Below are positions 19,019-54,469 of a DNA stretch of 64,000 nt, piece by piece. The stretch covers positions 26,648,409-26,712,408 of the forward strand of contig NC_060065.1 in NCBI RefSeq assembly GCF_020283565.1. The letters are read 5' to 3'. Both the position numbers and the translations under genes were made by a program. The notes under the pieces are model-generated. The model was given only the letters and a program-made list of their open reading frames with translations, was not told where the DNA came from and did no database searches. The DNA comes from Trifolium pratense (lineage: Eukaryota; Streptophyta; Magnoliopsida; Fabales; Fabaceae). How positions within the stretch are numbered: the stretch's first letter is position 1; each line of letters opens with the position of its first letter.

Positions 19019-19052
<34 letters not shown>

Positions 19053-29679: not shown

Positions 29680-30088
29680 ATTTTTTTTGAACCAAACAAA
29701 CTTAATTCATATTATCAACTAATAAATGTTCAATACATAAGGGAATAATCTCAAATCTATGGAAAATAGCCCAAACATTGGCCGCCCTAACAAGAGTATG
29801 AGCAACCAAATTCGCTTGTCTCCTAACAAACTTAACCTCAAAGTTTACAGAAGATGACATAAGAAGAATAATGTCGTTAACAATTAAACTAAATTCCGAA
29901 TTGCTCCGTCTTCTCGAATGGATGGCGTCAACCAACAACTTTGAGTCACTTTCAAACTGAACTCGCTCAAATCCACGATGAATAGCCTCTTTCATTGCAT
30001 GTAATAGTGACAATGCTTCGCCTTCCACTATGGAATAAGAAGGCTGCTGCCATTGAGTCAAGCCAGCCACAAAATGCCCATTGGTATC
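29680..30088 (-). pseudogene. LINE 3' part: RNase H domain and poly(A) end
   Basis: On the minus strand, a frame closed by a stop at 29702 encodes the C-terminal RNase H-like domain (RVT_3 type) of an L1-type plant LINE: EGEALSLLHAMKEA, FESDSKLLVDAI, VRRQANLVAHTLVR. A short A-run (complement of 29680-29687) follows the stop and probably marks the LINE 3' end. The frame continues across the Tat-1 insertion into 44324-44812 once one copy of the GTATC duplication is removed, so this is the other half of the LINE at 44324-47570. Confidence 0.85.
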
Positions 30089-31370: not shown

Positions 31371-31395
31371 AATTGGCACGCCCAGTGGGACTGGT
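31371..31395 (+). other. Tat-1 primer-binding-site region
   Basis: Immediately after the 5' LTR the sequence is AATTGGCACGCCCAGTGGGA. By position this is the minus-strand primer site. I cannot assign the tRNA; it is not the common TGGTATCAGAGC initiator-Met type. Confidence 0.6.
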
Positions 31396-31469
31396 TTTGT
31401 GTTTGTCTAAAATATTTTGTGTATTATGGAATGAGAAACTTGTTTTCTGTTTATAACTTTCGATAGGTT

Positions 31470-33469: not shown

Positions 33470-33616
33470 CCATACAAGGGAGCTAACTGGGGGAAGCCTA
33501 TTACCAAAGGTCTCTCAATTCAGCAAAGGCTAGGCCCCCAAAACACTTTCAAGCCATCTGGAAGAGCACCCATTAACCAGTGGGTAAGTGGGCAGTATGT
33601 AACTTTTAACAGGAGA

Positions 33617-34831: not shown

Positions 34832-34916
34832 GTCCCCAGCATGGGATCGAATTACGGCTTACGCAGCCGAAAATAGAATCAAAATGGCTCTCGAAGCCAT
34901 TAGTTTATAAAGAGAT

Positions 34917-36647
34917 ATGGCTGTCGAAGCCAATGTGGACTTAGAAGATAAATTGGCCTTAGAGGCTAATGACTTGAATAATGGCGAAAAGCAAAGGCTA
35001 GATTGTATTTATGATGATGAACCTTTGGGTTTTGAAAAAGATCCACACAGTTCGATTCAAAGAATGCAATCTCAAGATCCTTTGCAGGAGATTGATATTG
35101 GAGATGGCTCTGTTAAAAGGCCAACTTATATTAATGCCAATATCGATCCAAGCTTAAGAGAAAGAATGGTTGAATTGCTTAAGTACTACAAAGATTGCTT
35201 TGCATGGGACTATAGTGAGATGCCTGGGCTAAGCAGAAATTTGGTAGAACATAGGCTACCTCTTCGACCAGACAAGAAACCTGTGAAGCAGCTTCCAAGG
35301 AGGTTTGCACCAGAAATCATGACAAAGATCAAGGCAGAAATTGAAAGGTTGCTCAAGTGCAAGTTCATTCGAACAACCAGGTATGTAGAATGGTTAGCCA
35401 ATATTGTTCCTATTATTAAGAAAAATTGGTCACTTAGAGTTTGTATAGACTTTAGGGATTTAAACAATGCTACACCAAAAGATGAATATTATATGCCTGT
35501 AGCAGAAATGTTAGTTGATTCAGCAGCAGGGGATGAATATTTAAGTATGCTAGATGGCTATTCAGGCTATAATCAAATTTTTATTGATGAAGATGATGTA
35601 TCAAGGACTGCATTTCGTTGCCCTGGTGCTTTAGGCACTTATGAATGGGTAGTAATGCCCTTTGGTTTGAAAAATGCTGGAGCAACATATCAAAGAGCCA
35701 TGAACTTAATTTTTCATGATTTCATTGAAATATTTATGCAAGTTTATATTGATGACATTGTTGTGAAATCCTCATCTCAGGATGAACACATAGATCATCT
35801 TAGAAAATCATTCGAAAGAATGAGAAAATGTGGATTAAAAATGAATCCACTAAAATATGCTTTTTGTGTACATGCAGGAGATTTCCTTGGCTTTGTTGTG
35901 CATAAAAAGGGCATAGAAATTAACCAAAACAAGACAAAAGCTATCACGGAGACGAAGCCTCCAAGAACAAAGAAACAGCTTCAATCTTTGCTAGGTAAAA
36001 TCAACTTCTTGAGAAGGTTTATTTCAATCCTACGTGGTAAAGCTCAACCATTCTCTCCATTGCTAAAGCTCAAGAAAGATGATGTATTCGAATGGGGAAC
36101 AGAACAGCAAAAGGCATTTGATGAGATTAAGGCGTATTTGTCTAAGCCACCTACTTTAATGCCTCCTATTCGAAACAAAGCAATGAAGTTGTATATTGCA
36201 GCATCAGATTCAACTATTGGAAGCATGCTCGCTCAAGAGGATGAAAATGGCGTAGAAAAAGCTATTTACTACCTAAGTAGAATTTTAAATGATGCTGAAA
36301 CTAGATATAGTTCAATTGAAAAGCTTTGTCTATGTTTGTATTTCTCTTGTACTAAACTTAAGCAATATATCAAGCCAGTTAATGTTTATGTCTATTCTCA
36401 CTTTGATATTATTAAGCATATGTTATTAAAACCAATTTTGCATAGTAGAATTGGAAATTGGGCTTTGGCTTTGACTGAATACTCATTAACCTATCAACCT
36501 TTGAGGGCTGTCAAAGGTCAAATAGTTGCTGATTTCCTCGCTGATCATTCAGTAGTCGAAGTTTCAGTAACCTACGTAGATTATGAGCCTTGGACTTTAT
36601 ATTTCGATGGCTCAAGACATAAACATGGTAAGGGATTGGAATCTTGA
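34917..36647 (+). CDS. Tat-1 reverse transcriptase and RNase H1
   Basis: A 576-codon open frame. RT occupies about residues 85-350: [38 protein letters not shown] and the catalytic [10 protein letters not shown] connection and Ty3-type RNase H follow (about 400-540, including [16 protein letters not shown] and [19 protein letters not shown]). It ends [15 protein letters not shown] and a stop because one base is missing around 36635-36640; the next domain is in the +1 phase. Copies cDNA from the element RNA in the cytosolic particle. The RT itself looks intact. Confidence 0.88.
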
Positions 36648-38381
36648 TTATCTCCCCCTTAAGAATTCCAACAAAGTTTAGGTATAAGATTAATGGATCT
36701 TGCTCCAACAATAAGGCTGAGTATGAGGCTTTAATTGCAGGCCTAAAGATTCTTTTAGACCTGGGGGCAAAACATGTTAAAATCAGAGGAGACTCTGAAT
36801 TAGTAATAAAGCAATTAACAAAAGAGTATAAATGCATTCAAGAGCATCTGATGAAATACTTTGTTATTTCATTCTCTTTGCTGAAACGTTTCGATTCATG
36901 TGATATTCAACATGTACCTCGAATTGAAAACCAAGAAGCAAATGATTTAGCTCAAATTGCTTCTGGTTACAAGTTAACAAGAGAAAAACTAGAGGAATTA
37001 GTCGAGATTAAGGAAAAGCTAATTTCATGCGAAGCAATGCCCAATGTATCAACAGCATCTGAACAGCTGAGGGCAAATGAGCAAAGTGTCGAAGCCAACT
37101 TCGAAATGGTGTATGCGCACTTTGATGAGGTAATGACAGAGATTTTCGTCATTGATAACTTAGCTGACAATGATCGGAGACAACCCATTGTTAACTATCT
37201 GGAAAATCCAACAGGTGTAACTGAAAGAAAGGTCAAATATAGAGCTTTAAGTTACACAATCATTGGAAATGAGTTATTTAAGAAAACACCTGAAGGGGTT
37301 TTGTTGAAATGTCTTAGTGAAAACGAGGCATATATAGCAATTTTCAATGTTCATAGTGGAGCCTGTGGTGCTCATCAAGCAGGCCATAAAATGAAATGGC
37401 TTCTGTTTCGACAAGGGCTATATTGGCCCTCTATGCTTAAGGATTGCATAGAATATGCAAAGGGATGTCAAGAATGTCAAAAACATGCAGGGATACAACA
37501 TGTTCCTGCGAGCGAGTTGCATTCGATTGTCAAGCCTTGGCCTTTTAGGGGCTGGGCCTTAGATTTAATTGGTGAAATTAGGCTAGCTTCATCAAAAAAT
37601 CAACGCTATATATTGGTTGGAATTGATTATTTCACCAAGTGGATAGAGGCTGTGGCTTTAACAAATGTAGATCAGGAGGTTGTGATTAATTTCATCCAAA
37701 ACCACATCATTTATAGGTTTGGGCTTCCTGAAACTATTACTACAGACCAAGGGACAGTGTTTGTTGGACGAAAGATGCAAGACTTTGCTGAACAAACAAG
37801 TTTTAAATTAATAACTTCGACGCCTTATTATGCTCAACCAAATGGGCAAGTCGAAGCAGCCAACAAGGTCATAATTGGTCTAATTAATAATTTGGTCTCC
37901 TAAGGAATTAACAGGTTCAACTCCTTTTCGACTAACTTATGGTCATGATGTTGTATTGCCTATTGAGATAATGATGCAATCAATTCGAGTGAAAAAGCAA
38001 TTAGAACTACCTACTGACCATTATTGGAAATTGATGTTGGATGAGTTAGTAGATGTGGATGAGGAAAGGTTGCAAGCATTAGATGCCTTAGTTCGACAAA
38101 AGGAAAGAATTGCCAAAGCATACAACAAAAAGGTTAAATCTAAAACCTTTGACTTAGGGGATTTAGTATGGAAAGTTATCCTTCCCATGGATAGAAGAGA
38201 TATAGTCTTTGGGAAATGGTCACCTAACTGGGAAGGACCATTCAAGATTTCTCAGATATTATCTAATGGGGCTTATGAAATTGAAGAGTTAACTCCTGAA
38301 CAACGTTCAATAAACATGAATGGCAAATATTTAAAGAAATATAAGCCAATGTTACAAGAAGTATGCATAAAGAATGAGTAG
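36636..38381 (+). pseudogene. Tat-1 second RNase H and integrase (deleted and shifted)
   Basis: After the frameshift the frame encodes the archaeal-type second RNase H of the Tat lineage ([43 protein letters not shown]). Integrase follows: a zinc-binding HHCC module (HSGACGAHQ...CQECQKH), then the core with D ([10 protein letters not shown]), D ([10 protein letters not shown]) and E (PNGQVEAAN). After VIIGLINN the sequence jumps to [17 protein letters not shown] with a stop and phase change; roughly 25-30 codons of the core's C-terminal side are missing. The tail to 38381 has the usual DLVWK and WEGPFKI motifs. Integration by its own enzyme is not expected. Confidence 0.87.
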
Positions 38382-38525
38382 TGCAAGGATTAAAAAAGAC
38401 TGCAATATGGCAAAAGAAATTGCCAAGAAAATGGAAATTTTATTCATTAGAATTAACATTACAACCAATCATTCAAGAATATTCAAGAAAAATACAAAAA
38501 TGGTTGAATGTTGCAGGATAACCAC
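38382..38525. terminator. Convergent gap with poly(A) signal for the antisense gene
   Basis: This is the 144 bases between the pol stop (plus strand) and the stop of the antisense acidic gene (minus strand). The complement of 38439-38444 reads AATAAA, about 82 bases past the antisense stop, a plausible polyadenylation signal. Confidence 0.45.
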
Positions 38526-38864
38526 TTAGGGTTTACCCTGGGCTTTAGTTCCTTCATCTTTCGAATCAGAGCTGGAAAGCTCAGAAACCTGAGATTCTTC
38601 TTTCTCAAAAGAAGATGTTCCTGGGAAATCTTCGTCAGGCTCCCAGGTGCTGAGGAACTCAGCATAGTCTTCATCTGTGTCATTTGAACTTGAAGAATCA
38701 GAGGAGAGAACAATAGTTTCTATCTCCTTATTTTTTGCCCTCTTAGGGCGAAGGAGTTTGGTGCGTGGAGGCTTGAAAGCTGGTTTCTTGATTCTTCCCC
38801 TTCCAAGAGGACGTTGAGTTTTTGGATCTTGGGTGGAAAGAGGTTGATTTTTCTCCTGATCCAT
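38526..38864 (-). CDS. Tat-1 antisense acidic Ser-rich protein (112 aa)
   Basis: An intact 112-codon frame on the strand opposite to gag-pol, from ATG 38864. Residues 1-45 are basic and Pro/Lys/Arg-rich (GRGRIKKPAFKPPRTKLLRP, a possible nuclear localisation signal). Residues about 48-67 read ETIVLSSDSSSSNDTDEDY, a hydrophobic triplet followed by serines and acids, as in phospho-regulated SUMO-interacting motifs. The rest is acidic. It has its own TATA box (38931-38938 complement) and poly(A) signal. A related 109-residue protein starting MD lies in the same strand context in Tat-2 (48516). Function unknown; a role in nuclear or chromatin interactions is inference. Confidence 0.65.
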   Translation of the reverse strand: MDQEKNQPLSTQDPKTQRPLGRGRIKKPAFKPPRTKLLRPKRAKNKEIETIVLSSDSSSSNDTDEDYAEFLSTWEPDEDFPGTSSFEKEESQVSELSSSDSKDEGTKAQGKP

Positions 38865-38930
38865 TTTTCAAAGAAGTTTGTTGCTTCTTGATGTTGGACT
38901 GATGATGAGAATGAAAGGTCTTAAATGCAG

Positions 38931-38938
38931 TATTTATA
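38931..38938 (-). promoter_or_regulatory. TATA box of the antisense acidic gene
   Basis: The complement reads TCTATAAATAC, a near-ideal plant TATA box, 67 bases before the ATG at 38864. The expected start of transcription about 30 bases downstream leaves a leader of roughly 40 bases. Confidence 0.6.
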
Positions 38939-39318
38939 GATGAACTCATAAAGAGTGAAGTGATGCGCTTTTAATGCCTAAGTGGTTACAACTAACCATA
39001 ATTAGTTTCTCATAGGGAAGTGTTGTTTCAATAAATGCCCGAGGGGGTGTTATGTTTGGCTGCATTGGAAACCTGTTTTGCCTTACCCTTTTAGAGGAGT
39101 TATTAAATAAACTCAGAATGTTGGCCAAAATAGGGAAAGCAAACAATGGTAGGCCCTCAAAAAATAAAATAACTTAGACAAGACAAGAACATGCAACATT
39201 TAAAACCAAAAGTAGGCATACATTAAAAAAGGGGCATGCCTAAGTTGTTCGACTGATAATTAAAAGGAAATTGTTCAAGAGTTACAAAAGGAAAACCAAA
39301 ATTCAAATATGGTTTAAA

Positions 39319-42300
39319 TTACAAAAGTCGTAAGGTTGCTGTTGTGACGAAGAAGGGCTTCTGATTAGCTGTTTGGAATTGGTAATATTGATTTCGAATG
39401 GAAACCAACTTACGTTGCAGCATTTCTTTATCATTCGTTAAACGCTCCACTTGCCTTTGGACAGCCAAGCAATCACTATAGTGTTGAAGTCCCTCATGGG
39501 CTAGTTCATCAATTTCGGCCCTATGAACTTCGACAGCCAATGTGGCCAAACGCTCCATTTTGGCCTCCTCTTGTCGAATCTTCTCCTTTAATTCTTCAAT
39601 CTCATATTGCCATTTGGCAATGTTATCCTCGCAAGTCACAATCTGGTTAAGAGCATCAAAAGAGGTAGCTTTGATCCTCGAAACTTCTGCATTGCAATGG
39701 GCGGCTTGATCAAAAAGACGTTGTTGTGCAGAGAGTTGAGACTTTAGCAACTCATCAGTTCTGCTTAGGAGTTGAGGTTGGTTGACATACTGCTCTAGGT
39801 AAGCTTCAGCTTGAGTAACCAAGAGGAAGATTGCTTCGCTAGTTCTAGGATTTTGGAGCTTGTTGAACAAGGCCTTAATGTTGAAGTAGATGGAAGAATC
39901 ACGTTCTAGCAATCCCAACATATCTCCATGAAGAATCTCTCGCCTAAACCTAAGCTCGTGATCAAATTGTTTTTTCTCGAGCAGGCTTTCCTTGTCTTCA
40001 GCATTAGGATTGGAGGCACCATGACTCGAAAGGAGTTTATTGAGTGCATCTGCTGGAGCTAAATCTTTCAACTCCTTAGCTAGCTCAGCTGGCAAATAAA
40101 TGGAAGGAGGAGGTTTTGAAACAGAAGTACCTTCCTCATCATAAGAGTCTCCAGTTTGAGAGTCGTCGTCATCAGAATCAAAGGTATTAGCATTCATCGA
40201 GCCAGAGCAATGGCTTGGCCCACTTGGTTGTGGCTGATTGGTAGTGGAATGGTCACCTTCGAGAGGTGGGCCCTGCTCATTGGCAACCCCCATGTCATGG
40301 CCAGCTTCAGCATTAACAGCCTCTATTATGGGCTCAGTTGTATTTGGCATTTGGGTTTGATCTAACAAAGGACTTTCATGTGATGGCCTTTGAGTAAGGT
40401 TGACTTCCCCATTGTTAGGCTCAAAAGTGCTGTTCCCTGCGCCAAGGTCAGGCGAACCAGTAGGCTTAGGAGATGGTGACTTGTTAGGAATGGATGATTC
40501 GATAGGCTGAGGGGAGGGAATCCTTTCCAACACAGTTTCATGCTGCGCCGCAACTGGCTCTTCGACCACTTCCTTAACCACTTTGTTGGGAGAAAGATTG
40601 TCTTGAGGAACAGTCTGTGGAGAATTTTGTGGCTGAAATATAATAAAGTCATAAAAATAAATAACAAGCCAAAAAACCAAGAAAATGGTAAGAACTAGAA
40701 GAGATGGCTTACTTGGGCCTGACTATCAAGAGCAGTTTCAAGCACTTGAGGCGCTTCTGTTGTGACAGCAGGTGTTTCAGCAGCAGTGGTCGAAATGGGA
40801 GACTCTTTATGCTTCTTCTTTTTCTTCTTCTTCTTCTTCTCTGAGTGTTCTTGAGGAGGATTTTTAGGAGGTTTGGAGGTATCCTCTAGTACTTCAACTT
40901 CGGAGGGATGATTTTCAGAAGAAGCCAACTGGTTAGACTTCTTGTCCTTCCTTCTCTTCTTCTTCTTCTTGTCCTTGGTAGGCTGGTCAGTATGAGGAGG
41001 ATCTTGTATGGTGGAAGTGGTTGTTTGTTCATGGATAGTTGAAAGAATGGGTGCGTCCTATAAGCCACATTTCGATGAGTTTACATTCAAACCAGAGAAC
41101 AAAGAAAGAAAGTTTTGGTTAAAGGGTTACCTTATCTGCAGCACTCGAATGAGCAACTGGGACAGGCTTTTGCTTCTTCGAAGAGGAGGGAGCTTCACTT
41201 GGGTGCAACCTTTTGCGTGAGGCAACCTTAAAAAAGGGCATAGCAAAAGTTAACACAGAAAATTCCATAGAAAGTTTGAGAGGTAATAAAAGGTAAAATG
41301 CTTACCCCTAGCTCAACCTTTGGTGGTGGAAGAGGAGGTTTGTTGGAACTGCTGGAACCTGCTTTCGACTTACTTCCTGCATAAAAGAGGTATACATAAG
41401 AGAAAAGGTATGCAAATTTAAGATTGTGTAAGCAGGATTCGAAACGACAGTTTACCTCTAGTGTTTAACTTCGATTTAATCTTGTTCAAAATGGATGAGT
41501 CGAATCCATTAGAGATAGCAGTGAGCAAGACAGTTCTATCGACCAAACGCCCTTCATAGTGGAGAGACCACCACTTGGAAAATTCCTTGGTGCAGGCATG
41601 AGAAGGCGCAAATTCGAATGGAGTGAGCTCATAGGAAGACTTGGTGAAATGCTCCAAAAACGAACGGTATTGTGGCTCTGTCATGCCATATTTGCCTAAG
41701 CAAATCTCCCTCTCCTCCAAGTAGATGCTCTTTGAGAGTATTTGGGTTAAGCCAAATTGGCGAGACACCAAGTTTGGGAAGTAACCAACTAGCCCAAACT
41801 CTCCAGCAGTTAATCCAATTCGACACGAAAGGACTGTAGGCATCAGATAAGCACTCCAAATGCTGGTAACCACCTCTTCGAAGTCCGGTGGAGAAGGAAA
41901 ATGTTGGGTGAACCAAGGAGGGCCAAGTGGCCTATCCACAAAGGGAGCGAAGCTAGGCTTGAATTTCTTCAAGTTCAGAAAAACACCTCTTACCCTGGGA
42001 GCCAGTCTTGCTAGCCTCGTGCCTTCGACTTGGCGCGCGCGCGACTCATCATAAAATTGCTCAGGCAAGAAAAGGTCAAGTTCTGTATGGAATGTAGCGT
42101 TTAGCCATAGTTGCAACAACCAGAAGGGACCAGCTCCCAAAAAAGTGGATCCATCACCTGTCTTTTTAAGGTGCTCACAAGCATCCCTCATGGATTCATA
42201 AAGACATCCAAGGATGAGTCGAGCAAAGCTAAATTGCTGACACTCATGCAGCTGAATGGCCATAGGAATGTATTTTTTGGCCACCTGGAGAGACTGAGTG

Positions 42301-43039
42301 CAGAATACATACTGAGATAGCCAGAGGGTTAAGAAAGCAACATGCTCTTCAGCACTTACTTCATCATCAGTTTTCTGATTCTCAATAATGTACTTGGAGT
42401 AGGATTTGTTGCGAAAATCAAACTTAATGGTGTCAGAAGCTTTAAAGGGGTCATAAGTGTCCCCAAGGGGCGATAAACCAGTAATAGCGGCAACATCAAG
42501 TAAAGTAGAGGAGTCATCATACCACATTCGAAGTGGAAAGTGTTGGTAGAAGACTCAAAGAAATGCAGAGCAGCAATAATCATTTCCTGTTGGTATTTAA
42601 GACATGTCCTAGAGAGTTGAATAAGGTCATAAATACCACAAGCTTGCCAAATATCAGCTTTGTCTTGTTGTATTCTATCCAACCAATTAAGGTATTGGTC
42701 GTTTAGGGAGGGAGCTGATCGAAAAACCCTGTTAGGCGCTTTGATATAACTAAAGTTATAGGGTTCACTAAGGAAAACCCTAGGAATGCAAAGCTTGTAA
42801 ACAGGAAAGATGGGTATTGTGTTGGAGTTACGATTTTTTCCATCTGGTTTAGGTCCCCCAAACGCATGCACCAGATTATTAATAGAGTATAGGAAGATTA
42901 CCTGATTCTCCCAAATTTTTTGCAAATCCAATCGCAGTGAAGGTTCTGGAACTGTACCTTCTTCGTAAGAAGAGAGTGTGTTGGTGGTCCACTTGCCAGC
43001 GTAAGGAAGTAGCTTTGTAACGTTTGAATTGGACGCCAT
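39319..43039 (-). CDS. Tat-1 antisense PMD-like/coiled-coil gene, five exons, one frameshift
   Basis: On the strand opposite to gag-pol. Exons inferred from GT-AG sites with matching phases: 43039-41456, 41376-41306, 41226-41131, 41057-40713 and 40632-39319 (about 1135 residues). Exon 1 resembles the plant mobile domain (aminotransferase-like, PF10536): WQACGIYDLIQLSR, HFECGMMTP and LLDVAAITGLSPLGD. An extra CT near 42510 shifts the phase within this motif; without it the gene would be open throughout. Middle exons are Ser/Lys-rich with nuclear-signal-like runs (KKKKKRRKDKK). The last exon has acidic and Pro-rich linkers and a C-terminal coiled coil (about 39360-39750). Host PMD proteins (MAIN/MAIL family) act in silencing and genome stability; what the element's version does is unknown. 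Confidence 0.72.
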
Positions 43040-43282
43040 TGTTGAAGTCCAAGAGTTCCGCAGAATTGACGATTAGGGTTGAAATTGGGAATCGCGAGTT
43101 GTTAGAGCAATTTAGAAAGAAGCTGAAAGGAAAAAAGATCGGTGGTTTGATGTTAAGTAAAGTTTCAAAGTTGAAGGTGTTTGGAAGCAAGAGATTCAGC
43201 AGAGAGTTCTCAAAGTTAAAGAAGAAGATGAACAGTTGAAAGTTTGGAGTTTGGAAAAAGAACAATGAAGAAAGGATTTGCC

Positions 43283-43290
43283 TATTTATA
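43283..43290 (-). promoter_or_regulatory. TATA box of the antisense PMD-like gene
   Basis: The complement reads CTCTATAAATAGG. It lies about 245 bases before the ATG at 43039 and just inside the 3' LTR, so it serves antisense transcription away from the LTR towards pol. Confidence 0.62.
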
Positions 43291-43530
43291 GAGGCGCGTG
43301 ATCGTAGAATTAAAATAATTCAAAAAGGAAAATAATAACTTCTTCAACTTCTTGTGCTGACAAGTGTCCAAATTCCTTGACAAGTGGAAAAGAAAGTAAG
43401 TTTTGGAGCCAATCCAAAAATTTTGGATATCAGCCTGAAGGATAGGAGAAATAATTGGAAAAGAGAGATATCCAGTAGTACTTTCAAAAATGTCACTTCC
43501 TCTTTCGATAGACACAGTCGAAAATGGCAT

Positions 43531-43545
43531 TTTTGGGGGGCAATT
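43531..43545 (+). other. Tat-1 polypurine tract region
   Basis: TTTTTGGGGGGCAATT lies directly before the TG of the 3' LTR; the G-run fits the plus-strand primer position. Confidence 0.65.
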
Positions 43546-44318
43546 TGTTGGATATATATTTGGTATTTATCAATTAAATATAATTGGTGGGTCCAATATT
43601 TATTTGAAGGTTATATTGTTAAAATAAAACTTTCAAACGATGCGTCGAAGTTCTAGTGATGTCGAAACGAAAGAGAGTTTCGAAGGCTTTGGAAGATATG
43701 CTTGGGGCTAGTTTATCAAGAGCATGTCGAAGTCGCAAAATAAGTCAAAGGGCCAGCTGGTCCAGGCCCAAAAGAAATAACAACGGCCCAATAGAGCATT
43801 GGCGCACACTGAAGAAATGAAGATTGGAAGTGGAGAACGTGGGTCGACGTGGCAAATCGAAGAGCGTTCATATGATCAAGAAGCAGTTACCACTTCGTCT
43901 TAGTATTTATAGCAGTTTTTCATTCAGAACAGGGGTCACAAATTTTATACAAAAAACTCTCCCTAAATTTCTAAGTACTCAGCGATCGAACGAAAGGAAT
44001 TTCGAGGAGAAAATGTATGTTTTGTGAACCATCTATTTGTAATTGCTTTTTCATTCAATGCAATTTACTTTTCAGCAATGTTTCTTTAGTTTTAATTAAC
44101 TTTTGTTCTTGAAGTTGCTGTTTCGAGGCGTTTCGAAGCAGTTATTTTTATTATTGTTTGCAAAAGATTTCATTCTTAGATGTTTGTTTTCCTCTTAAAC
44201 GAACACCCAAACATTTTCTTAAGTAAACCAAACACAAAATTGTTCTGAGATTTACTAGTTGGTCTCGCGAGTTTAAATACTTAAACTAGCGGTTGTTTAC
44301 CAAATTTCCACGTAAATA
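43546..44318 (+). repeat. Tat-1 3' LTR (773 bp, uninterrupted)
   Basis: Starts TGTTGGATATATATTTGG and ends CACGTAAATA (TA instead of CA). It matches the 5' LTR with about a dozen substitutions and keeps the 19-bp segment, with TATTTATAG at 43904-43912, that the 5' LTR has lost. Confidence 0.93.
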
Positions 44319-44323
44319 GTATC

Positions 44324-47300
44324 ACGAAAGCAAAGACCTATAGAAGTAACACCGGACCCACCTACAAACACAGCATCAACATTACACTTTATCCATCCCG
44401 CTTCTGGTTTCTCCCACCGAACCGGCCTAGGATCCTCAATAGGAACAACGTTATGACGCTGCAGTTGGTGGACAGTAAACCATTCATTCCAGACGACGAA
44501 CGCCATCTTTCCAACTTGGCTCGGGGACTGAATATTGTCATTCCAAATCTTGTCGTTTCGATTATGCCAAATGCACCAAAATAACAATGCAACCCGTCCT
44601 ATCATTGCACTATCCTCGTTTCTGCACATTCGAAATACCCTGTCTGCGACAGTCCCATGCTGGTAAGTTGCATTATGCAGCAACTGTGACAGGCCTGCGA
44701 CCGACCAACATTCGCGCGTTGCTTCGCATCCAAAAAACACATGAATATCATCTTCGACCTCAACATTGCACACATGACAACTTAGTTCACATTCTACATA
44801 ACGCTGTCTCAAGCGAACTCGCGTCGGTAGACACCCCTACACAACCTCCATAGTAAGTGACGCATTTTGTGAGGAGATTGAGCTTTCCAAATATCATTCC
44901 AACTGCCCTCTACATGGTGCCTATCGCTTCGAATAATACATCTCATGGCTAGATTATAACCAGATTTAACTGAGTAACACCCATTCCTTTCCTCCTCCCA
45001 AACCACGTTATCCTCTTTAACCGAACTAATAAGAGGGGTTGCAATAATCTCGTCCACTACTTGACCTGTAAACAAGTTACGAATCTTAGCTATATCCCAC
45101 ACTTTATAATTCTCAAGTAACAGGTCTTTAACAACTAAATGATAAACATCTTCCACTTGAGGTGAGGACACCCATCGGTCAACCTTTCCACGCAACCATG
45201 GATCATACATAACACGGATTCTGTCGCCACTACCAATCCGCCACCGACACCCACGTAAAAGAATTTGTCTAGCCTTCCAAATGCTACGCCATGCCAATCT
45301 AGAATTATAACCCAAAGATGCTTCGAGTAACGATGAGCGTGGGAAATACCTTGCTTTAACTAGTTTAGCCGCCAACGAGTCTGGATGTTGAATGATGTTC
45401 CATGCTTGTTTAGCCACCATAGCCATATTGAACGCTTCAAAATTACGAAAGCCTAAACCACCCTTCGCCTTAGGGCATGCGAGTCTGTCCCAAGCTAACC
45501 AGTGGATCCCTTTATTGTTGTTACCTCCGCCTCCCCACCAAAAGGCATTCAACATTTTCTCGATATCATCAATGAGTGAGGAAGGGAGGATAAACATACT
45601 CATAACATATGATGGGATGACTTGAAGCACAAATTTTATCATAAACCTCCTTACCGGCCTTAGACAATGCTCTTCCCCTCCAAGAATTGATTTTCTTCCA
45701 GATACGATCCTTGTTGTAAGAGAATATTGCTTTCTTGCTCCTTCCTATCATTGACGGAAGACCAAGATATACACCTGTTCCTAAAACATGACGGACACCA
45801 AGTATACGAGATAGATCTTCTTTATCAGCAGGAGACATATTGGGACTAAAAAATACTTCGGATTTGGCCAAATTAATTTCCTGACCAGAGGCTAGTTCAT
45901 AAGTATGAAGAATGCTCATAAGCTGATTTACCTCTGCTACACTTGCCCGGCAAAACAAGAAACAATCATCCGCAAATAGAAGGTGAGACACCTCTGGGGC
46001 GCCACGACAAATTCTCGCTCCATGAACATCCCCCCTCCCAACCGCCTGGTGAATAAGAGAAGTCAAGCCCTCCGCTACCAGAATAAACAGATAGGGAGAA
46101 AGAGGGTCACCTTGTCGCAACCCACGACTCGGTATAATCGGTCCAACTCTGTCATAATTCATGAGTATCGAGTAGTTGACAGATCTTACACACATCATTA
46201 TCCAACGTATCCAAACGTCACCAAATCCCATTCTAGTCAGAATTTCACGGAGAAAACCCCAGTCCACCTTATCATAAGCTTTGCTAATATCAATCTTTAG
46301 TGCTAACTCGCCTCTACACCCTGTAGTTTTTCTCTTCAAAGCATGAAGCACTTCGATCGCAATAAGAGCAAGGTTGTCAGAACCGGACCGGTCATCGAAC
46401 CGGCGAGCTCACCGGTTCAAGGTTCAATTGGTCGGACCAGGTTTAATCGGGGTCGAACCGTTTTTAATTAAATATATATTTTAATTAATATATAAATAAA
46501 AATATATGAATAATTGCTCAATATTTCATAATTTCACATATTAAAAAGATAAAATATCACAAGTAAAAATAAAATAAAATTTATAATTCAAACCAAATGA
46601 AAAATAGATGAAAAACAAAAACTTTTTCTATTCCTACGACGTCGTTGTTTTGTTTCAGATTTTTTTTTAAAAAAAAATAATTAAAACGACGTCGTTTTTC
46701 CCTTTTTTTAAAAAAAAAACTGCAAAACCGCTTGAACTGTCCGGCCGGTTCGCCGGTTCGTCCCGGTTCGACCCCGGTTCATGCGGTTTTTTGCCGGTCG
46801 GTTTCCTATCCATTTTTTGCTCAAAATCGAACCGTTTTCATGACCGTTCACGGTCCGAACGGTCCGACCGACCGGTCCGGTTTTGATAACCTTGAATAAG
46901 AGTATTATCAAGAATCGATCTGTCTTCCACAAATGCTGATTGCTCCTGGGAAACACACTTATCGAGACAAATCTTCAACCTGTTCGCAAGCACTTTAGAT
47001 ATCATCTTATAAAGGACGTTACAGAGAGATATAGGACGCAAGTCTTTCATAGACATCGGATTGTCACATTTAGGAATGAGACAAATGTTTGTTTCGTTAA
47101 GACTCGTGGGGAAGTACCCTCTCTCCAACCAGTTAGATGCTGCCAGAAAAATATCATCACCACATTGCTCCCAGAACCTTTGATAAAAAGCTGGATTAAA
47201 TCCATCAGGCCCTGGAGATTTATCCGGCTGCATTTGAAACAAAGCTTGTTGAATTTCAACCTTTGTAATAGGCGCTACAAGGTAGATATTATCCTCAGCT

Positions 47301-47570
47301 GTCACACGCCGCTGGATTAGATTAAAGACCGGTTCCTGTTCGCCACTCTTAGGCTTAAAAATATCATCAAAGTATTGTTTCACTACCTCACAAAGCTCCT
47401 CTTGAGTATGAACCTCGGTGCCGCCTTCATCGACAAGTTTACTAACCTTCTTTTTCTTATGACGAGCAGTTGCAGACTTATGGAAAAAACTAGTATTCAT
47501 ATCACCTTCTTTAAGCCAATGGATCTTTGCGCGTTGTTTCCAATAGTCCTCTTCTTGAACCATACATTAT
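44324..47570 (-). pseudogene. L1-type LINE ORF2: RT, zinc-binding domain, start of RNase H
   Basis: On the minus strand, from about 47563: EEDYWKQRAKIHWLKEGD...NTSFFH, then RT with DKSPGPDGFNPAFYQ, LRPISLCNVLYKMISKVLANRL, LALKIDISKAYDKVDW, GLRQGDPLSPYLFIL and the catalytic LLFADDCFLF. The zf-RVT region (CHVCNVEVEDDIHVFFGC) and the start of RNase H follow, continuing at 30088-29702. Defects: 5' truncated (no endonuclease domain), a hAT MITE at 46369-46894, a +1 shift near 45650 (GKEV/MIKFVLQV), another near 44815, and the Tat-1 insertion. No LINE target duplication could be identified. Confidence 0.9.
46369..46894. mobile_element. hAT-type MITE in the LINE (526 bp)
   Basis: Ends CAAGGTTGTCAG and, reversed, CAAGGTTATCAAAACCGGAC, with a perfect 8-bp duplication AATAAGAG (46361-46368, 46895-46902). 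Removing it and one duplication restores the LINE frame (…DNTLI/AIEVLHALK). It is highly similar to 30549-31068, with the same paired ACGACGTCGT palindromes. Confidence 0.92.
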
Positions 47571-47718
47571 TTTAATAATAAAAAAAACTACTTCTTTGTA
47601 TCTAGCACGGTATATAAGTTTGATCCTTATTTATTTTAACCATACAAGTTTAGAGATCCGAATTTTATCGAGGTTATAAATTAAATGAGATTATTTACAC
47701 ATATGCATATACTCCATC
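47571..47718. other. Spacer between LINE and Tat-2
   Basis: AT-rich sequence with no recognised feature. CCATC (47714-47718) abuts the Tat-2 LTR and would be its left target duplication, but the other end is outside the window. Confidence 0.4.
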
Positions 47719-48185
47719 TGTCCCAAGGGTGCGTTTGATCTGCAAAAGGATAGTGATCGTGTAGACCAGAAGAGTGCGAGTCCGCCGGCGTTTACGGTGG
47801 TTGAGAGTGTTGAGACCTCTGTTGAAGCGGAGGGGGGTTGTGTACCTGCAGGCACTCCGACGCTCAAGTCAGTTTGTGTGTAAAGGTTTTCTTGGCTAAA
47901 ATAATGCGTACCTTGCGAATGAAGTGGAGACACATATATATAGCCCCCAGCGCAGGGCCAAGGCCCTTGATGGCATTAATGGCCATCAAGTGGCTGCCGG
48001 AAAACGGCTTGGAAGCCTTGATGTGCAATAAATGCCCATCATTCCGGTTTACGGCCGTTACGATACGTAAGAGTATCTGACCGTTGGAGGGTCGAGCGCG
48101 TCTAGCGGGCTCTTCGTACATGCTTGCTCGGATCGTATGTGTTCGACATCCTCTTAGGCTCGAGCGTGAGGCTCGGCCCAGAACA
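47719..48185 (-). repeat. Tat-2 3' LTR (467 bp)
   Basis: Inverted ends TGTCCCAAGG...CCCAGAACA (minus strand TGTTCTGGG...CTTGGGACA). A minus-strand TATA-like CTATATATATGTG (complement of 47931-47943) fits an LTR promoter reading in the element's sense direction. The other LTR is not in the window, so the limits rest on the ends, the TATA and the adjacent purine tract. Confidence 0.7.
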
Positions 48186-48200
48186 GGAGCCCCCCAAGTT
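48186..48200 (-). other. Tat-2 polypurine tract region
   Basis: The minus strand reads AACTTGGGGGGCTCC immediately before the LTR start TGTTCTGGG, as expected for the plus-strand primer. Confidence 0.65.
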
Positions 48201-48457
48201 GTTATGCTCGTTGATGAGGATAATAACTTGAAGCTTGACCGATTCACCTTGTGTTTAGATCTTTCGACTTGTCGAACACAGTTATTTTCGAGTTGGTTCA
48301 CGGTGCTTTTGGATTTTCGCGGTTCCCTTTGGTCAAAGTCAAGCTTTGGAAAAGGGAAAGCGTTTTTTCCAAGCGGTCAACCCTGGGTATCAGTAGCCGC
48401 CTCTTGCATTCATGGACGCCAGGCACGGTATTGGGCCTTTTGGGCGGCAAGTTTCTT

Positions 48458-48465
48458 TATAAATA
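48458..48465 (+). promoter_or_regulatory. TATA box of the Tat-2 antisense acidic gene
   Basis: TTTATAAATACTTG 58 bases before the ATG at 48516, a strong plant TATA box at the same distance as in Tat-1. Confidence 0.6.
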
Positions 48466-48515
48466 CTTGCTGCCTTTTCTTTTGCTTTCCATATTTTGTG
48501 CTTTGAGTGTCAGCG

Positions 48516-48845
48516 ATGGATAGGAAGGATTCCAAGAAGGTTGTTGTTGAGAGCTCCAAGTCCCAAAGGGGAAAGAAGAGAGCCGAAGTGTCCACGGCTG
48601 TGGTGGCTCGTTCTCAGAAGGCAAAGGAGGCCAAGGTGATCATCCTCTCTTCAGAAACTTCCGACACGTCAAGCTCCGATGAATCGGAGGATTTTATTGA
48701 GGAGTTCCTGAGGGCTCACAAGTTTCCTCACCTCTATCCTGCTTCCCCCTCTTTCGGTGAAGGGAAGTCTCAGGAGGAGGTAGAATCCAAGATGAGGCCG
48801 ACGGAGGTGTTGAAGATTGATTCGGACTCCGAGCATGAGGATTAG
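48516..48845 (+). CDS. Tat-2 antisense acidic Ser-rich protein (109 aa)
   Basis: An intact frame from ATG 48516 (MDRKDSKKVVVESSKSQRGK) on the strand opposite to pol. The first ~45 residues are basic. Then comes VIILSSETSDTSSSDESED, a hydrophobic core followed by serines and acids, and EEFLRAHKFPHLYP; the C-terminus is acidic. It aligns with the Tat-1 protein in size, position of the basic part, the (I/V)LSS(D/E)(S/T)S core, a following (D/E)(F/Y)xEFL and SFxxxxSQ. It has its own TATA box and an AATAAA 49 bases after the stop (48894). Function unknown. Confidence 0.65.
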   Translation: MDRKDSKKVVVESSKSQRGKKRAEVSTAVVARSQKAKEAKVIILSSETSDTSSSDESEDFIEEFLRAHKFPHLYPASPSFGEGKSQEEVESKMRPTEVLKIDSDSEHED

Positions 48846-49469
48846 ATGCTCGGGTCCTTTGTAATTTTTCTTTCCTTGTATTGGCTTCCCCTTAATAAAG
48901 AACGTTTTTACTTTAAATGTTCCGAGCACATTTTATTTGCATTCGTGCTTTATTTATGCTCTTTTAATTTAATAATGTCGCGGATTTTCCAGACGATTCC
49001 GAGCGGACTTTTTGATCGAAAGTCATACCTTTTTCGAGCATGTTTTCGATTTTGCGAGCTTGTTGAGGAACGCGATGTTCTTATTTGGTAGTTGCGGCCT
49101 TCCCCGTATTTTTAGCGAAAATAAGGGGATTGAATCCCGAGGATCTCGCATTTCCTTTTTGGCTGCGATTTTCTCGGGACGTAGTGTCTTGGGTTCCGCG
49201 AGATTTGCGCGAGCAGAGGGATGTGACCTGAAAGGACGAGTCGCTTCGCTTCCTCCCGCCACGTGTAAAGGCTATCTGAATAGCACTTGAGTGGCTATTT
49301 AATTGAGATTTGAATCTCGAGGTCGTCGACAGCCGTCGGATTTTCGCGCCTTTTCGTTTCTCTGGAGATTAAATCTGGGCCGCTTATCTGCCATAGATCC
49401 GGTCCGTTGGATTAATCTGACGGTTCAGATGGGGAATGGCGCAAATTTTTTCGTGCAGGCGCGTTGGCC
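48846..49469 (+). other. 3'UTR of the acidic gene and spacer before the next promoter
   Basis: Contains AATAAA at 48894-48899, then about 550 bases of GC-richer sequence without a supported gene. Confidence 0.5.
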
Positions 49470-49478
49470 TATATATAG
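49470..49478 (+). promoter_or_regulatory. TATA box of the Tat-2 antisense Transposase_28-like gene
   Basis: CCTATATATAGAAG lies upstream of a leader that includes a spliceable intron: donor CAACAA|GTAAGT at 49617 and acceptor TGCTTTTTCAG ending at 50041, 12 bases before the ATG. Confidence 0.6.
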
Positions 49479-50053
49479 AAGGGAGGTTTTTTGTTTGAAA
49501 CTTTACAGTTTCTCATTTCCCCTATTAACTTTCTTGCTTCCATTCTCTCTGGTGATTTTCGTTCCGTTTGCTACTACACTACAAGCGCCTTCTCTTCATT
49601 CCTTTTTAACCAACAAGTAAGTGCCTCATCCTTTTCGATTTTGCTTTGACTGTTTGGTTAAGTAGGACGTGGTTAGTTCACGCAGTAGGTAGTTTTGTAG
49701 TGTGTTTCTCATATAACTTGGGTAGTCTTTTTTTGAGAGTTGTAGGTGGTGATTAACACCCTTTTCCCCCCCAAATAAGGATTTTTCGGGGTTTTAAGGC
49801 GAAAAATCGCTGCTTTTTACCCACTGATGGTTGGGTTTTTGCTTTAGAACAATGTCGAGCACCACATGCGTTTTGTGCTCGGTTGTTTTTATGAACTTAG
49901 CGTCCGGAGGGATGATTTTGTCCCTTTCAGTTTTCGCGTAGTCCTTTAAGTGTTGTTGAGATCCTCGCCCTTTCACTTGATTTGACGGTGGAAGGGTGGA
50001 TTTGAATGTTGAATTCATTTTTCCTTCCTCTGCTTTTTCAGGTTTTTCTTTAG

Positions 50054-52075
50054 ATGGCTGAAGGGTCTCAAAGTCAAGTCTCGTTTATAGGTCAACAGCC
50101 GTCCTCGTCGATTCGTGTTCGAGCCGACCTTTCATGGGTGGCGGATGAACCTCGAGAAACAGAGTCAGTTTATAAGAACTGCGAGAGTGATATCCCGGAG
50201 TCAATGTGCACGGATATACAGACTCATCCTACCGAAGATTTCGAGGTGCGGATTCCTACTGCTCGTCACAGGATCTGCAGTAATTGGGCCTGGGGGACGA
50301 TTCCCATGTACGAGATCGCTTTTAAGCATCTGGGAATTAGGTTGCCCTTTACGGATCTTGAGGTGTCCATCTTCCGCCATCTTAGCTTAGCCCCTTCTCA
50401 ACTTCATCCGAACTCTTTGGCCTTTATCAAGGCTTTTGAAAAGACTGCCGAACACTTGGGTCTGGGTCCCACCTTGCCTTTATTCTTCTATCATTTTGGC
50501 CTTCAGCGAAGCTGTCCTCGAGGGGAACAGGCGAAAGGGAAACTCGCGAAAGGAGCCCCGCTACCGGACACCAAACATGGATGGGTTTCTTTGAGGCAAC
50601 GGAAACGCCTCTTTGATATGTACGACGAATCGGTGCGGGGGTTTAAGTCCGTTTTCTACGGGGTCAGGCCCATAACGACGAAAGGCTGGAATAACTTCGT
50701 CCGTAGGGGGCACCGTATAGACGAGCTGGGGCAGGAAGTGCTCGATGAACAGGGGCTCCCCATAGATGAGGATTTCGCCAGATTCCCATTCTATTGGCGT
50801 AGAGATCATTACTCCATGTCGACCAAAGAGTTTGTTTTTAAGCTGGGGGAGTTGTCCGCTGAGGAGAGAGCTGATTATAAAAAGCTGTTAGAGTTCGTGG
50901 AGGGCTTGCCTCCTTACCTTCTGAGCGACCCTGAGGGCGAGCCTTTATTCGGAGAAGATGGTCAGAGGTTGACCAAGACCAAGTTTATTGCAACCGAGGA
51001 GTTGATCGCTTGTGACACTCCGGAGAAATTATCTGTTTTTTGGAGTATGCTCGTGGCTTTCTTTTATCTATTTTTACTACTGTTTTGCTTCCTTTATTTG
51101 CTCGTCTTTGTTTTGCTAACTGTCAATCTGATTTGTGTAGGTACAATGACCAGTGGTGTCGCCGCTCTCCGCAAAGCTCGCGCTGCCAAGAACAAGAGGG
51201 AAGCGAGCAGTGCTGCTACAACCTCTTCTGCCCCCCAGTCCCCGACAGCCTCTATTGTGGATCGTTCGAAAAGAATACGGCTGGAGGAGGAAACCTCTTC
51301 TCGACAGGAGCGTGAGGTAGTGGATCTCTCTGGCCAGGATGATCCTCCGAACTCCGGTCCCCATAGGTTGTCCGCTGGCGTTCCTGCAGACGATTTCGTC
51401 CTTCCTCCCATCTATGCCCATGGCGAGCTGCTGACCGGAGAAACCAAAGTGAAGATTAATCCAGCAGATGAGGCCATCCTCGCAGACATGGGTCCCGAGG
51501 CTCTCCGCTCTGAAATTACCGCCTAGTCCATGGCCTTGCTCAAATTGGTCGAGGTGGCGACTTTTCTGAATGGTCGGGAGTGCAAATACTTGGAGGAGAG
51601 GGATGAGGCTCGCAAGGAGTTGCCTCTGTTGAAGCGAAGGCTGGCAGAATCTGAGGCCTCCTGCGAGGGTTATAGAGAGGAGCGTAAGACTATCTCGGCC
51701 AACCTTAAGGAGGCGGAGGACAGGCTCAGGACGGTGTCGGAGGAGAGGGACAATGTCGTGCAGAGGGTTGATGAGCAGAAGACTTTGATTGGCGAGCTGG
51801 AAGGGAAGTTGGCAAGGCTTCAAGTTTCTGGTGTTGTCGAGGAAGAGGAGAAGGAGCTCGACCCTCAAGGGGTGTATGCCTCCTCTTCTCGTGCTGCTTT
51901 GATCGCGAAGATCCAGGAGCTTGAGTCCAACATGGTTGCTGCTGCTACTTTTAGTTTCAACAACGCAGTGGCCCAGCTCAGGATTCTCAACCCCGGTTTG
52001 ATCGAGGAGGGTTTAGATGAGGAGAAGGATGTGCGTGATGGAGCTATCGTGACCCCCTCTGATGATGAAGTGTGA
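50054..52075 (+). CDS. Tat-2 antisense Transposase_28-like/coiled-coil gene, one in-frame stop
   Basis: On the strand opposite to pol. Coding exon 1 is 50054-51044, intron 51045-51140 (GTATGC...TTTGTGTAG, 96 bases), exon 2 is 51141-52075; about 641 codons. Residues about 60-290 resemble the 'putative gypsy type transposon' domain (Transposase_28, PF04195): PMYEIAFKHLGIRLPFTDLE, LSLAPSQLHPNSLAFIKAFE, FFYHFGLQ, then KGWNNF and FPFYWRRDH. A basic Ser/Ala-rich linker follows with KRIRLEEE and REVVDLSGQDD (SUMO-motif-like), then a long C-terminal coiled coil (ERDEARKELPLLKRRLAESE...). A TAG at 51524-51526 interrupts the frame just before the coiled coil; the phase is unchanged on both sides. The unspliced intron would also be open. 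Function unknown. Confidence 0.72.
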
Positions 52076-52929: not shown

Positions 52930-54469
52930 TGAAGGAAAATTGATACGATAAAAGCAGCGGAATTTTAAAATTTTCCTTTTGTGATCCTTACGAATGGTCA
53001 TGAATTGTGTTTAGAGTTTTACCTTTTGGTTCGAAAACTCCCTTTAAATCATGAACGGCTATCGAACACTTCGAATCACGAACAAGGTCACGAACAAGAA
53101 CCTCGAACCGTCACGAACAAGGTCACCACCAATTCACCAACGAATTTGATCACAAGCGTTAAAGGTATAACGCCTCTAGCCAGTCCACACGAACAACAAC
53201 CTTCAATGGAGTGCTAGCTCCAATGGTTTGAAGGGTTAGGAGAAAGGAGGCACAAAATAAGGATTAGGGTTTTTCACAAAAACTCTAGAAAGGTGATTAG
53301 GGTTTCTCAAGAGAGGAGAGAACAAAGGCTCATGAGAATGAGTAACAAAAGTGTGTCACTTTTTCTCCTTACCACAAGGGTTCTATTTATAGAACCACTT
53401 GCCATGGCAAAATTACACTAAAGCCCTTTTAACTAAATGGGCTATAGTGGGCGCCGTTCTCATGTAAATATGTCTAGTACATATTTGCACCCCCTTCTTG
53501 CTACATCATACCATATGATGTAATGCTCATTTTAATTACCATAATACCCTTATCATATTTCCTTATTTCTCCAAGGTGCACCGTACCTTACGGTGTTCCA
53601 ATCTCACTAGATTGTTCTTATGTGTGTGACCCTGTAGGTTTCCGTAACATTGACAATTATAATAAATCACTATTTATTACAATAAACAGTGAGCGGTATC
53701 TAGCAACACATCACTGCTACTCAAGTTACGAGAAATTAACATGTGATCTAAACATAACCTCTTGTGATAATATCAGTGTGTATAATTACCCCTTTGCCCT
53801 TTATGTCTATATTGAACACAAAACATACTTGGTGTCATCTTTGTCCAGTTCAATATTGGGCCCATGACATTTATCCTGTTGTGCAGGATTGGCAAATTCC
53901 ATCTAGGTCACTACTGTCCCTCAGCATGCTTTGTGAAGTACCCATCAACTGCCTTTATGGTTATCCTGTTACGGACAACGTTAGATCAGCAACAAAGTGC
54001 TTGACTCCACATCTAGGGTACAAAGTGGTTTCAGGTCTAAGGGCGGTTTACACCATTATCACCATGAGAGTAACTTGTGACACTTTGCATAACTTTGCAT
54101 GTAGTACTCTCATAGCGGGTCAATCCAGTATAAATATTACTCCTAATATTTATACCTACGTCAAGACTTGATAACTCCTTATCCCATGATCCATGAGATG
54201 TGATCATCAGTCTATCTTCATAATAGTCTTTATGCTTTAAGGTTATCCCCTTTACCTTAAAGCTCGACTACGGATACTTTAAGAATAGTGTCCTTATGTT
54301 TAATATTATCTCATGATTAAGTCACACTTAATTATTAAACGGACTTTCTATTCTAGGGACTTCATTATTTTGCAACCTTACAAATATAATAAAGAAATGC
54401 CATATTTATATTCAAACTCCTAAAGCAAATACTATGAAAATAGATTGGCTCTTAGGGCTTACTCCAACA
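52930..54469 (-). repeat. 3' LTR of the Copia-type element (1540 bp)
   Basis: Same length as the copy at 59548-61087; I noticed only two differences (near 52974/59592 and 54045/60663), so insertion is very recent. Open frames inside both LTRs are shadows without coding support. Confidence 0.93.

Follow-up and report, generated by a model that had tools for sequence, protein, structure and literature searches.

Why should two different retrotransposons each carry a pair of genes on the strand opposite to gag-pol, and what do the two pairs have in common? The question is raised by a 64,000-nt stretch of Trifolium pratense DNA (NC_060065.1, positions 26,648,409 to 26,712,408; hereafter the window), which lies on contig C7 of the 413.6-Mb assembly that we searched (G000). 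The window holds two elements of the Tat type, Tat-1 on the plus strand and Tat-2 on the minus strand. In both, two genes lie antisense to gag-pol between pol and the 3' long terminal repeat (LTR), as a first-pass annotation of this DNA had proposed: a short gene, which we call S (S1 in Tat-1, S2 in Tat-2), and a long gene. We find that the short gene is common to the two elements and kept by selection, whereas the long genes show no relationship.

Two antisense genes in each of two Tat elements

The genes and domains concerned are the following.

30089..44318, plus strand: Tat-1, a PMD-bearing Tat element (LTR pair and flanks; Pfam domains)
34917..38381, plus strand: Tat-1 reverse transcriptase (RT), RNase H, remnant of a second RNase H (aRH, below the Pfam cut-off) and integrase, in several frames
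38526..38864, minus strand: S1, short antisense gene of Tat-1, 112 aa, intact
39319..43039, minus strand: Tat-1 long antisense gene, with PMD (PF10536), a Lys-rich linker and a C-terminal coiled coil (by eye)
47744..48184, minus strand: Tat-2 3' LTR, TG...CA, inferred from its ends
48516..48845, plus strand: S2, short antisense gene of Tat-2, 109 aa, intact
50054..52075, plus strand: Tat-2 long antisense gene, with Transposase_28 (PF04195) and a coiled coil
61077-63867, minus strand: Tat-2 pol with RT, RNase H, second RNase H (aRH) and integrase (Pfam)

Read from the LTR, the order is long-short in Tat-1, where S1 and the last integrase-end frame are 144 bp apart, and short-long in Tat-2. Both orders agree with the first-pass annotation, as do the different globular domains of the long genes, i.e. 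PMD in Tat-1 (PF10536, 8.7e-23) and Transposase_28 in Tat-2 (PF04195, 1.3e-7). Five hhalign comparisons, of PMD with Transposase_28 and of coiled coil with coiled coil, gave probabilities of at most 0.5%, and common ancestry of the two long genes is unsupported by this null result. The idea of one cassette in both elements thus holds for the short gene and fails for the long ones; because the latter show no relationship, "domain-swapped" is one reading of the difference and independent acquisition is another.

Both long genes are broken in their window copies. Tat-1 has a frameshift around 42.5 kb, and the Tat-2 gene has an in-frame TAG at 51524-51526 with the coiled coil downstream. Splice consensus suggests several introns in the Tat-1 gene, and the Tat-2 gene probably has one intron at about 51045-51140 plus an intron in its 5' untranslated region, before 50043. 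An AlphaFold2 model of Transposase_28 from a single sequence had a low confidence score (pLDDT 32.7).

Tat-2 belongs to the Tat clade of Ty3/gypsy by its second RNase H between RNase H and integrase. The Pfam order in its pol is RT_RNaseH (92-190), RVT_3 (227-345), then H2C2 and rve, and we take the RVT_3 domain to be the aRH. Its assignment to Retand rests on the antisense Transposase_28 open reading frame (ORF) between pol and the 3' LTR. For Tat-1, Pfam finds gag, RT, RNase H and integrase, while the protease match and an RVT_3 remnant before integrase (20.0 bits, under the cut-off of 21.6) stay below threshold; the Ogre assignment comes from the PMD extra ORF.

S1 and S2 belong to one protein family

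With three kinds of shuffling, 2000 runs each, no score came up to the 82 of the S1-S2 alignment, and hhalign of two small S family alignments gave a probability of 96% over 52 columns. Specifically, a profile of 14 S proteins from the Tat-2 lineage matched all 21 Tat-1-type S proteins at 47.6-67.2 bits, against at most 25.2 bits for 1050 shuffles with local composition preserved. The reverse comparison separates them less well: a Tat-1 S profile scored 15.0-70.4 bits (median 25.4) with a shuffle maximum of 29.4. Since these scores overlap the shuffle maximum, the Tat-1 profile misses some Tat-2-lineage S. At the DNA level, identity between S1 and S2 at codon positions 1, 2 and 3 is 0.45, 0.57 and 0.28 (103 aligned codons), and their nucleotide comparison yields no significant match (best E 0.093). 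With third positions random and no DNA match, the S protein has been kept while synonymous sites became saturated. The relatedness of the short proteins that the first pass had recognised is therefore upheld, and on sequence evidence S1 and S2 are members of one family.

Intermediates between S1 and S2 also exist (predicted proteins P0035 and P0020; loci L031, L032 and L033), and these share N- and C-terminal blocks besides the core. Identity to S1 is 31-40% for P0003, P0007, P0016, P0020, P0023 and P0025, and 22-25% for S2 and its nearest relatives, P0001 and P0002. P0035 starts with a Tat-2-type LTR piece (65% over 37 aa), and its S core is nearer S1 (56% over 50 aa) than S2 (39% over 72 aa). 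P0032, another predicted protein, runs from a Tat-1 coiled coil (73%, 169 aa) into an S1-type core (54%, 82 aa), repeating the Tat-1 order of coiled coil and S at another place. A DEDYAEFLKTY-like unit is doubled in P0022, P0024 and P0027.

There is, moreover, a third class of S, as locus L043 (G000:C4:37033200-37035200) has a core type of its own. Its S, at 694-963, belongs to the class of the T. pratense protein P0039 and has the core IIIISSESESEEDE...DYAEYLATY; the strand opposite to this S holds a long ORF. P0039 has two 100% matches in the assembly, and a search for its class gave 77 matching rows, part of them S1-type. Protein searches for S returned 8, 7 and 40 overlapping matches, window copy included; all those with an organism name are from T. 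pratense, T. medium or T. repens, the rest are ena and jgi entries, and locus L039 encodes the T. pratense protein P0003 unchanged. Viral contigs were scanned with two S alignments, Tat-2 pol and the Tat-1 integrase, and genome contigs with one S alignment; the hits were pattern matches and not relatives.

Copies, order and strand in the genome

We searched the assembly with S1, S2 and, independently of S, the Tat-1 integrase end, scoring in each case the best 150 of 595, 648 and 1362 candidates, respectively. At least 122 rows are S1-type (E 1.5e-17 or better, at least 58% identity), and 115 of these 122 are stop-free (counted by eye). In the S2 search, the first 127 rows (E 4.5e-24 or better) are Tat-2-type, and 115 of them are free of stops. 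The two lists overlap at no fewer than 8 places. Among the matches listed, then, the short frames are retained in most copies.

The best 150 integrase-end rows comprise 121 at 84-100% identity, which we call Tat-1-type, and 29 at 75-78%, a sister family. An S1-type row lies within 3 kb of 116 of the 121, on the opposite strand in every case (116/116). For 20 of the 122 S1-type places we fetched 9.9-kb stretches, which often end short of PMD: S is antisense to a Tat-1-type integrase in 20/20, with the coiled coil 5' of S in 17/20 and PMD in 9/20. A PMD search of the assembly gave 111 rows. In the Tat-2 lineage, S is followed on its 3' side by Transposase_28, encoded on the same strand, in 13/13 loci (L029-L041; tblastn), the match in L039 being limited to 25 residues, and Pfam confirms the domain in 3/3 loci given to it. 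L032, which is Retand-type, has an additional antisense ORF of 215 aa upstream of S; to the eye this ORF looks like a coiled coil, and it shares 63% identity with the initial part of P0026.

In the sister family, a PMD row (~48%) lies within 3 kb of the row C7:11949130, and in a 1.5-kb sister locus, L042 (G000:C2:47323201-47324700), an antisense coiled-coil ORF with 28% identity to the Tat-1 coiled coil adjoins pol.

Selection on the antisense frames

Ratios of nonsynonymous to synonymous divergence (dN/dS) are given as medians over pairs with 0.1<dS<1, which are not independent of each other; the Tat-1-type set consists of the window copy and L009-L028 (21 copies). For S, dN/dS is 0.29 in the Tat-1-type set (198 pairs, 21 copies; codon bootstrap 0.22-0.37) and 0.26 in the Tat-2 lineage (38 pairs, 14 copies; 0.21-0.39). 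The long genes are lower still: 0.12 for the Tat-1-type coiled coil (18 copies, 52 pairs), 0.08 and 0.09 for two pieces of PMD (10 and 8 copies; 22 and 18 pairs), 0.10 for Transposase_28 (31 pairs) and 0.12 for the Tat-2-lineage coiled coil (8 copies, 14 pairs). All of these values are far below neutral. None of the refuting outcomes named in the first pass that we could check was obtained. For comparison, the Tat-1 integrase and RT stand at 0.09 (20 copies, 122 pairs) and 0.08 (18 copies, 146 pairs), and the Tat-2-lineage integrase at 0.02 (4 copies, 4 pairs). Other reading frames of the S DNA have dN/dS of 0.82-1.40, the mirror frame excepted. S is under frame-specific purifying selection, with the mirror frame also low.

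Promoter-like and poly(A)-like signals

The first-pass annotation had given each gene its own TATA box, and this extends to the copies. We scored TATA[AT]A at 150 to 20 nt before the ATG and AATAAA within 250 nt after the gene; the Tat-1-type set had 21 genes examined, one of which (L017) has no ATG. A TATA precedes S in 20/20 Tat-1-type genes having an ATG and in 13/14 of the Tat-2 lineage (33/34 together), and AATAAA follows in 19/20 and 13/14. At random positions within these loci the rates are 12% for TATA and 18% for AATAAA. In the window these signals are:

S1, minus strand: TATA at 38938; AATAAA 81 nt past the stop
S2, plus strand: TATA at 48458; AATAAA at 48894

The long genes have TATA signals farther upstream, at 244-255 nt before the ATG for PMD in 6/6 testable copies (43290 in the window copy) and at 566-597 nt for Transposase_28 in 10/11 testable genes (49470 in the window copy). 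A 3' splice-like site stands immediately before the Transposase_28 ATG.

Replacement of the antisense block and history of S

Comparison of loci within the Tat-2 lineage suggests that the antisense block has a history of its own. The integrase ends of L029 and L031 are near-identical (140 codons; dN 0.006, dS 0.154), whereas dN and dS reach 0.44 and saturation for Transposase_28, 0.51 and 1.5 for the coiled coil, and 0.68 and 2.4 for S. Likewise, L031 and L037 have an integrase dS of 0.22 and a saturated dS in Transposase_28. At the DNA level, L031 and L029 are 83.6% identical on the LTR side and 90.9% on the pol side (1418 bp), while the middle block aligns in islands only, of at most 331 bp, including one that covers the long gene's promoter region. 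By contrast, L029 and Tat-2 are alignable throughout, at 80%. Because fast protein evolution alone would leave dS unsaturated, these values argue for replacement by recombination; in L031, the one divergent cassette type with integrase sequence fetched, the antisense block appears to have been replaced as a unit relative to LTR and integrase.

Exchange of S between the two lineages is another matter. In a tree of 46 S proteins, the 21 Tat-1-type proteins fall on one side of a branch with support of 97/96 (58/88 in a first tree that lacked five loci), with P0039 as a long branch next to them. S has thus followed its lineage in the sampled copies, and this tree shows no sign that S moved repeatedly between lineages. 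Within the Tat-1 lineage, S distance grows 1.75 times as fast as integrase distance, and core distance 1.18 times (159 pairs). From the cross-lineage integrase identity of 32%, simple arithmetic predicts about 14% for S and 26% for the core. S is more alike between lineages than this integrase-scaled rate allows, and L042 has no S beside pol, which leaves room for one old transfer. A single such transfer may have taken place; alternatively, S descended vertically with a slowly evolving core. Uneven rates along S could likewise account for these figures.

These patterns raise the possibility, to which we give a good deal less than even credence, that the antisense block is a semi-independent module exchanged as a unit, also across the Ogre/Retand divide, with S as a hub and the long proteins as interchangeable specificity partners. 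Such exchange of the block may be compared with that of phage accessory cassettes.

What S may do

S is homologous between the lineages, is under selection, has conserved signals, and keeps a fixed order and strand within each lineage in the copies examined. What it does may be approached through its composition. The median net charge is +9 before the core and -12 after it, and AlphaFold2 (23 aligned sequences) models S1 with a mean pLDDT of 63.8 and one helix, at residues 65-73 (EDYAEFLST). S1 is accordingly predicted to be disordered with one acidic helix. The strict pattern [VI][VILT]LSS[DE] is matched by 38/46 tree proteins. The core [VI][VI]LSSDSS with its acidic run is similar to phospho-regulated SUMO-interacting motifs (SIMs), YAEFL in its acidic setting to activation-domain helices, and GRGRIKKP to an AT-hook.

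On this basis we propose that S is a selected Tat accessory gene whose product is a small disordered nuclear adaptor that, together with the long protein, activates or de-silences the element, a reading to which we give slightly less than an even chance. Nucleic-acid binding or nuclear targeting would fall to the basic, AT-hook-like N-terminus and SUMO binding to the [VI][VI]LSSDSS-acidic core, while a transcription or chromatin co-factor could attach to the acidic YAEFL helix. With the long coiled-coil protein as carrier, S would reach the element's own DNA, where the two may switch it on or de-silence it. The antisense placement would allow intron-bearing genes with their own promoters to be carried in a retrotransposon, because splicing of an antisense transcript leaves the genomic RNA untouched. 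A role as nuclear regulator or anti-silencing adaptor is what these features suggest, and since the motifs are named by resemblance, the model stays a proposal.

Several observations weigh against this reading. In the S2 search, 17 rows at 46-49% identity hold two stops each within the S match, a TGA and a TAG (e.g. G000:C5:17625493-17625822); if they form one subfamily, elements whose S is broken have apparently multiplied. Among the matches listed, S is lacking beside five of the 121 Tat-1-type integrase rows, and none of the 29 sister-family rows has S within 8 kb among those listed (147 S1-search rows, the first 127 S2-search rows and the first 32 P0039 rows). L042, one sister-family copy, has no S between coiled coil and pol. 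Together with the extra ORF of L032, L042 and the 17 rows with stops restrict the paired arrangement: it stands for two lineages, and it is not universal. Because copies were picked by their S match, the sampling is biased towards conserved S frames. Low dN/dS (0.38 and 0.31) is also found in the mirror frame of the other strand; no ATG ORF of 80 aa or more lies opposite S1 or S2. Eight of the 46 tree proteins fail the strict SIM pattern, some by one letter, and the T. repens proteins P0029-P0031 have no SIM core. Finally, the SIM, AT-hook and activation-helix labels are given by resemblance to known motifs.

Other explanations have to be set beside the proposal of a nuclear adaptor. S and the long protein might act on the pre-integration complex, in nuclear import or chromatin targeting, with an acidic/SUMO-binding tail that tethers it. 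The basic N-terminus and acidic tail of S (+9, -12) would suit this, and Vicient and Casacuberta raise nuclear entry of this complex in discussing these proteins (PMC7264820); a gene with its own antisense promoter-like signals, outside the polyprotein, would be an odd virion component, though, and the cassette was exchanged independently of integrase, with which an integrase partner should co-vary, so that we regard this as unlikely. Convergence is a still weaker candidate in our estimate: S1 and S2 would be unrelated disordered acidic proteins that arrived at the same short linear motifs. It would explain why the likeness is concentrated in the SSD...DEDYAEFL core, why some of the set score poorly in the reverse profile test and why the L043/P0039 class has little else in common. 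It leaves unexplained the forward profile scores (48-67 bits, where shuffles of the same local composition reach 25), the matches of intermediates in the N- and C-terminal blocks and the similar promoter spacing in both groups.

We give very little credence to the view that the antisense transcripts themselves, as double-stranded RNA or through promoter interference, are the functional product and the frames incidental. Such regulation is discussed for these elements (PMC7264820), but the low dN/dS of S (0.26-0.29) and of the long genes (0.08-0.12), selection on S that is frame-specific apart from the mirror frame, the kept spacing of start and poly(A) signals, and amino acids kept despite lost DNA identity all speak for proteins. 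It is just as improbable that S is a recently captured fragment of a host gene, carried as a passenger. Gene capture is known in plant LTR elements (same source), yet dS is at least 1 for many S pairs, and this high synonymous divergence implies long residence in the elements. Many S copies are open and under purifying selection, and no named host gene appeared in the S protein searches, a limited test.

The two elements and their surroundings in the window

Other features of the window are as follows.

30089-31370, plus strand: Tat-1 5' LTR, containing a 520-bp insert
43546..44318, plus strand: Tat-1 3' LTR (LTR pair comparison)
52930..61087, minus strand: young nested LTR element, which splits the Tat-2 cassette from Tat-2 pol

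Tat-1 is flanked by a 5-bp target duplication (GTATC at 30084-30088 and 44319-44323), and shows a primer-site sequence. The insert in its 5' LTR, at 30549-31068, resembles a miniature inverted-repeat transposable element (MITE); its terminal inverted repeats read CAAGGTT.TCAGAACCGG..., and its duplication is 8 bp long (ATGTTTTG). Tat-1 apparently inserted into a minus-strand element like a long interspersed nuclear element (LINE), within a region that by eye is RNase H-like, at 29702-30088 and 44319-44629; the reverse transcriptase of this interrupted element lies at 45569-46231. A second MITE-like copy (90.7%) is found at 46368-46895, between two frames of a LINE-like reverse transcriptase region.

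Tat-2 starts at about 47744 and extends past the window end; alignments of other Tat-2-type copies (L029, L031, L037 and L041) end at 47745-47773. The nested element has LTRs of 1540 bp with 2 mismatches and a target duplication CGTCG; between its LTRs every ORF is shorter than 100 aa, and it shows a primer-site-like sequence, TGGTATCAGAG, reading on the minus strand. Neither antisense block contains notable tandem repeats, apart from a 29-bp CTT run at 40812, and Rfam gave no match across 30-64 kb.

Elsewhere in the window, large local duplications (3620-11068 and 17511-26201; 93.7% and 97.7%) contain an array of ~190-200-bp repeats at 6254-9251 and 20115-21126. Host sequence includes a Nodulin-like/NFD4-type transporter gene (14903-16519) and an F-box gene (28343-28801).

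Relation to known elements and significance

HTLV-1 HBZ is an antisense-encoded nuclear regulator of a retroelement. It is named in PMC11963269, and we draw on it as an analogy only, with no homology claimed.

The long genes have been published. Extra ORFs encode PMD in 57% of Ogre and Transposase_28 in 23% of Retand elements (Neumann 2019, PMC6317226), and an antisense Transposase_28, a domain predicted to bind DNA, occurs in 97% of Retand clusters (Vicient 2025, PMC11963269). Tat-2 is like these Retand elements in having Transposase_28 antisense between pol and the 3' LTR, and Tat-1 is like the Ogre elements in its PMD extra ORF. The available text of PMC6317226 gives neither a short partner nor a strand for the PMD ORF, and that of PMC11963269 does not mention S. 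The two surveys used cut-offs of at least 250 codons for extra ORFs (PMC6317226) and of at least 600 bp, with shorter ORFs taken only if they encode Transposase_28 (PMC11963269), so that S, at ~330 nt, falls outside both. No description of S was found in literature searches of top titles and abstracts, which did not cover Steinbauerova 2011 or the original Retand and Grande papers. Of the cassette that the first-pass annotation thought might be undescribed, the long genes are already in print; for S no description turned up within these searches.

Closer precedents may exist. ORF4 of the Silene Retand is an antisense ORF (aORF) with Transposase_28 (cited in PMC7264820, PMC11728184 and PMC3290532), and two Silene species differ far more in ORF3 and ORF4 of their Retand than in its gag-pol (PMC3290532). 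If ORF3 is S-like, it could be a precedent for the pair. The maize Grande gene23 is antisense, with a promoter upstream of it and a nuclear product (cited in PMC7264820), and by its description it is an antisense accessory gene like those of the Tat-1 and Tat-2 cassettes. VANC anti-silencing proteins of VANDAL DNA transposons are fast-evolving transposon-encoded regulators that act on their own family (PMC10398659); they belong to another transposon class and serve as an analogy only.

The antisense genes of Tat elements have been on record for years with no function assigned, and S offers a specific handle on them: it is a short gene with low dN/dS, common to two lineages with different long partners. 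As S is small and has two candidate binding motifs, it should be amenable to biochemistry. Exchange of the antisense block against pol means that this module can evolve alone, and it should be annotated and classified apart from pol. A conserved kit in two element families suggests that it does something useful for these jumping genes.

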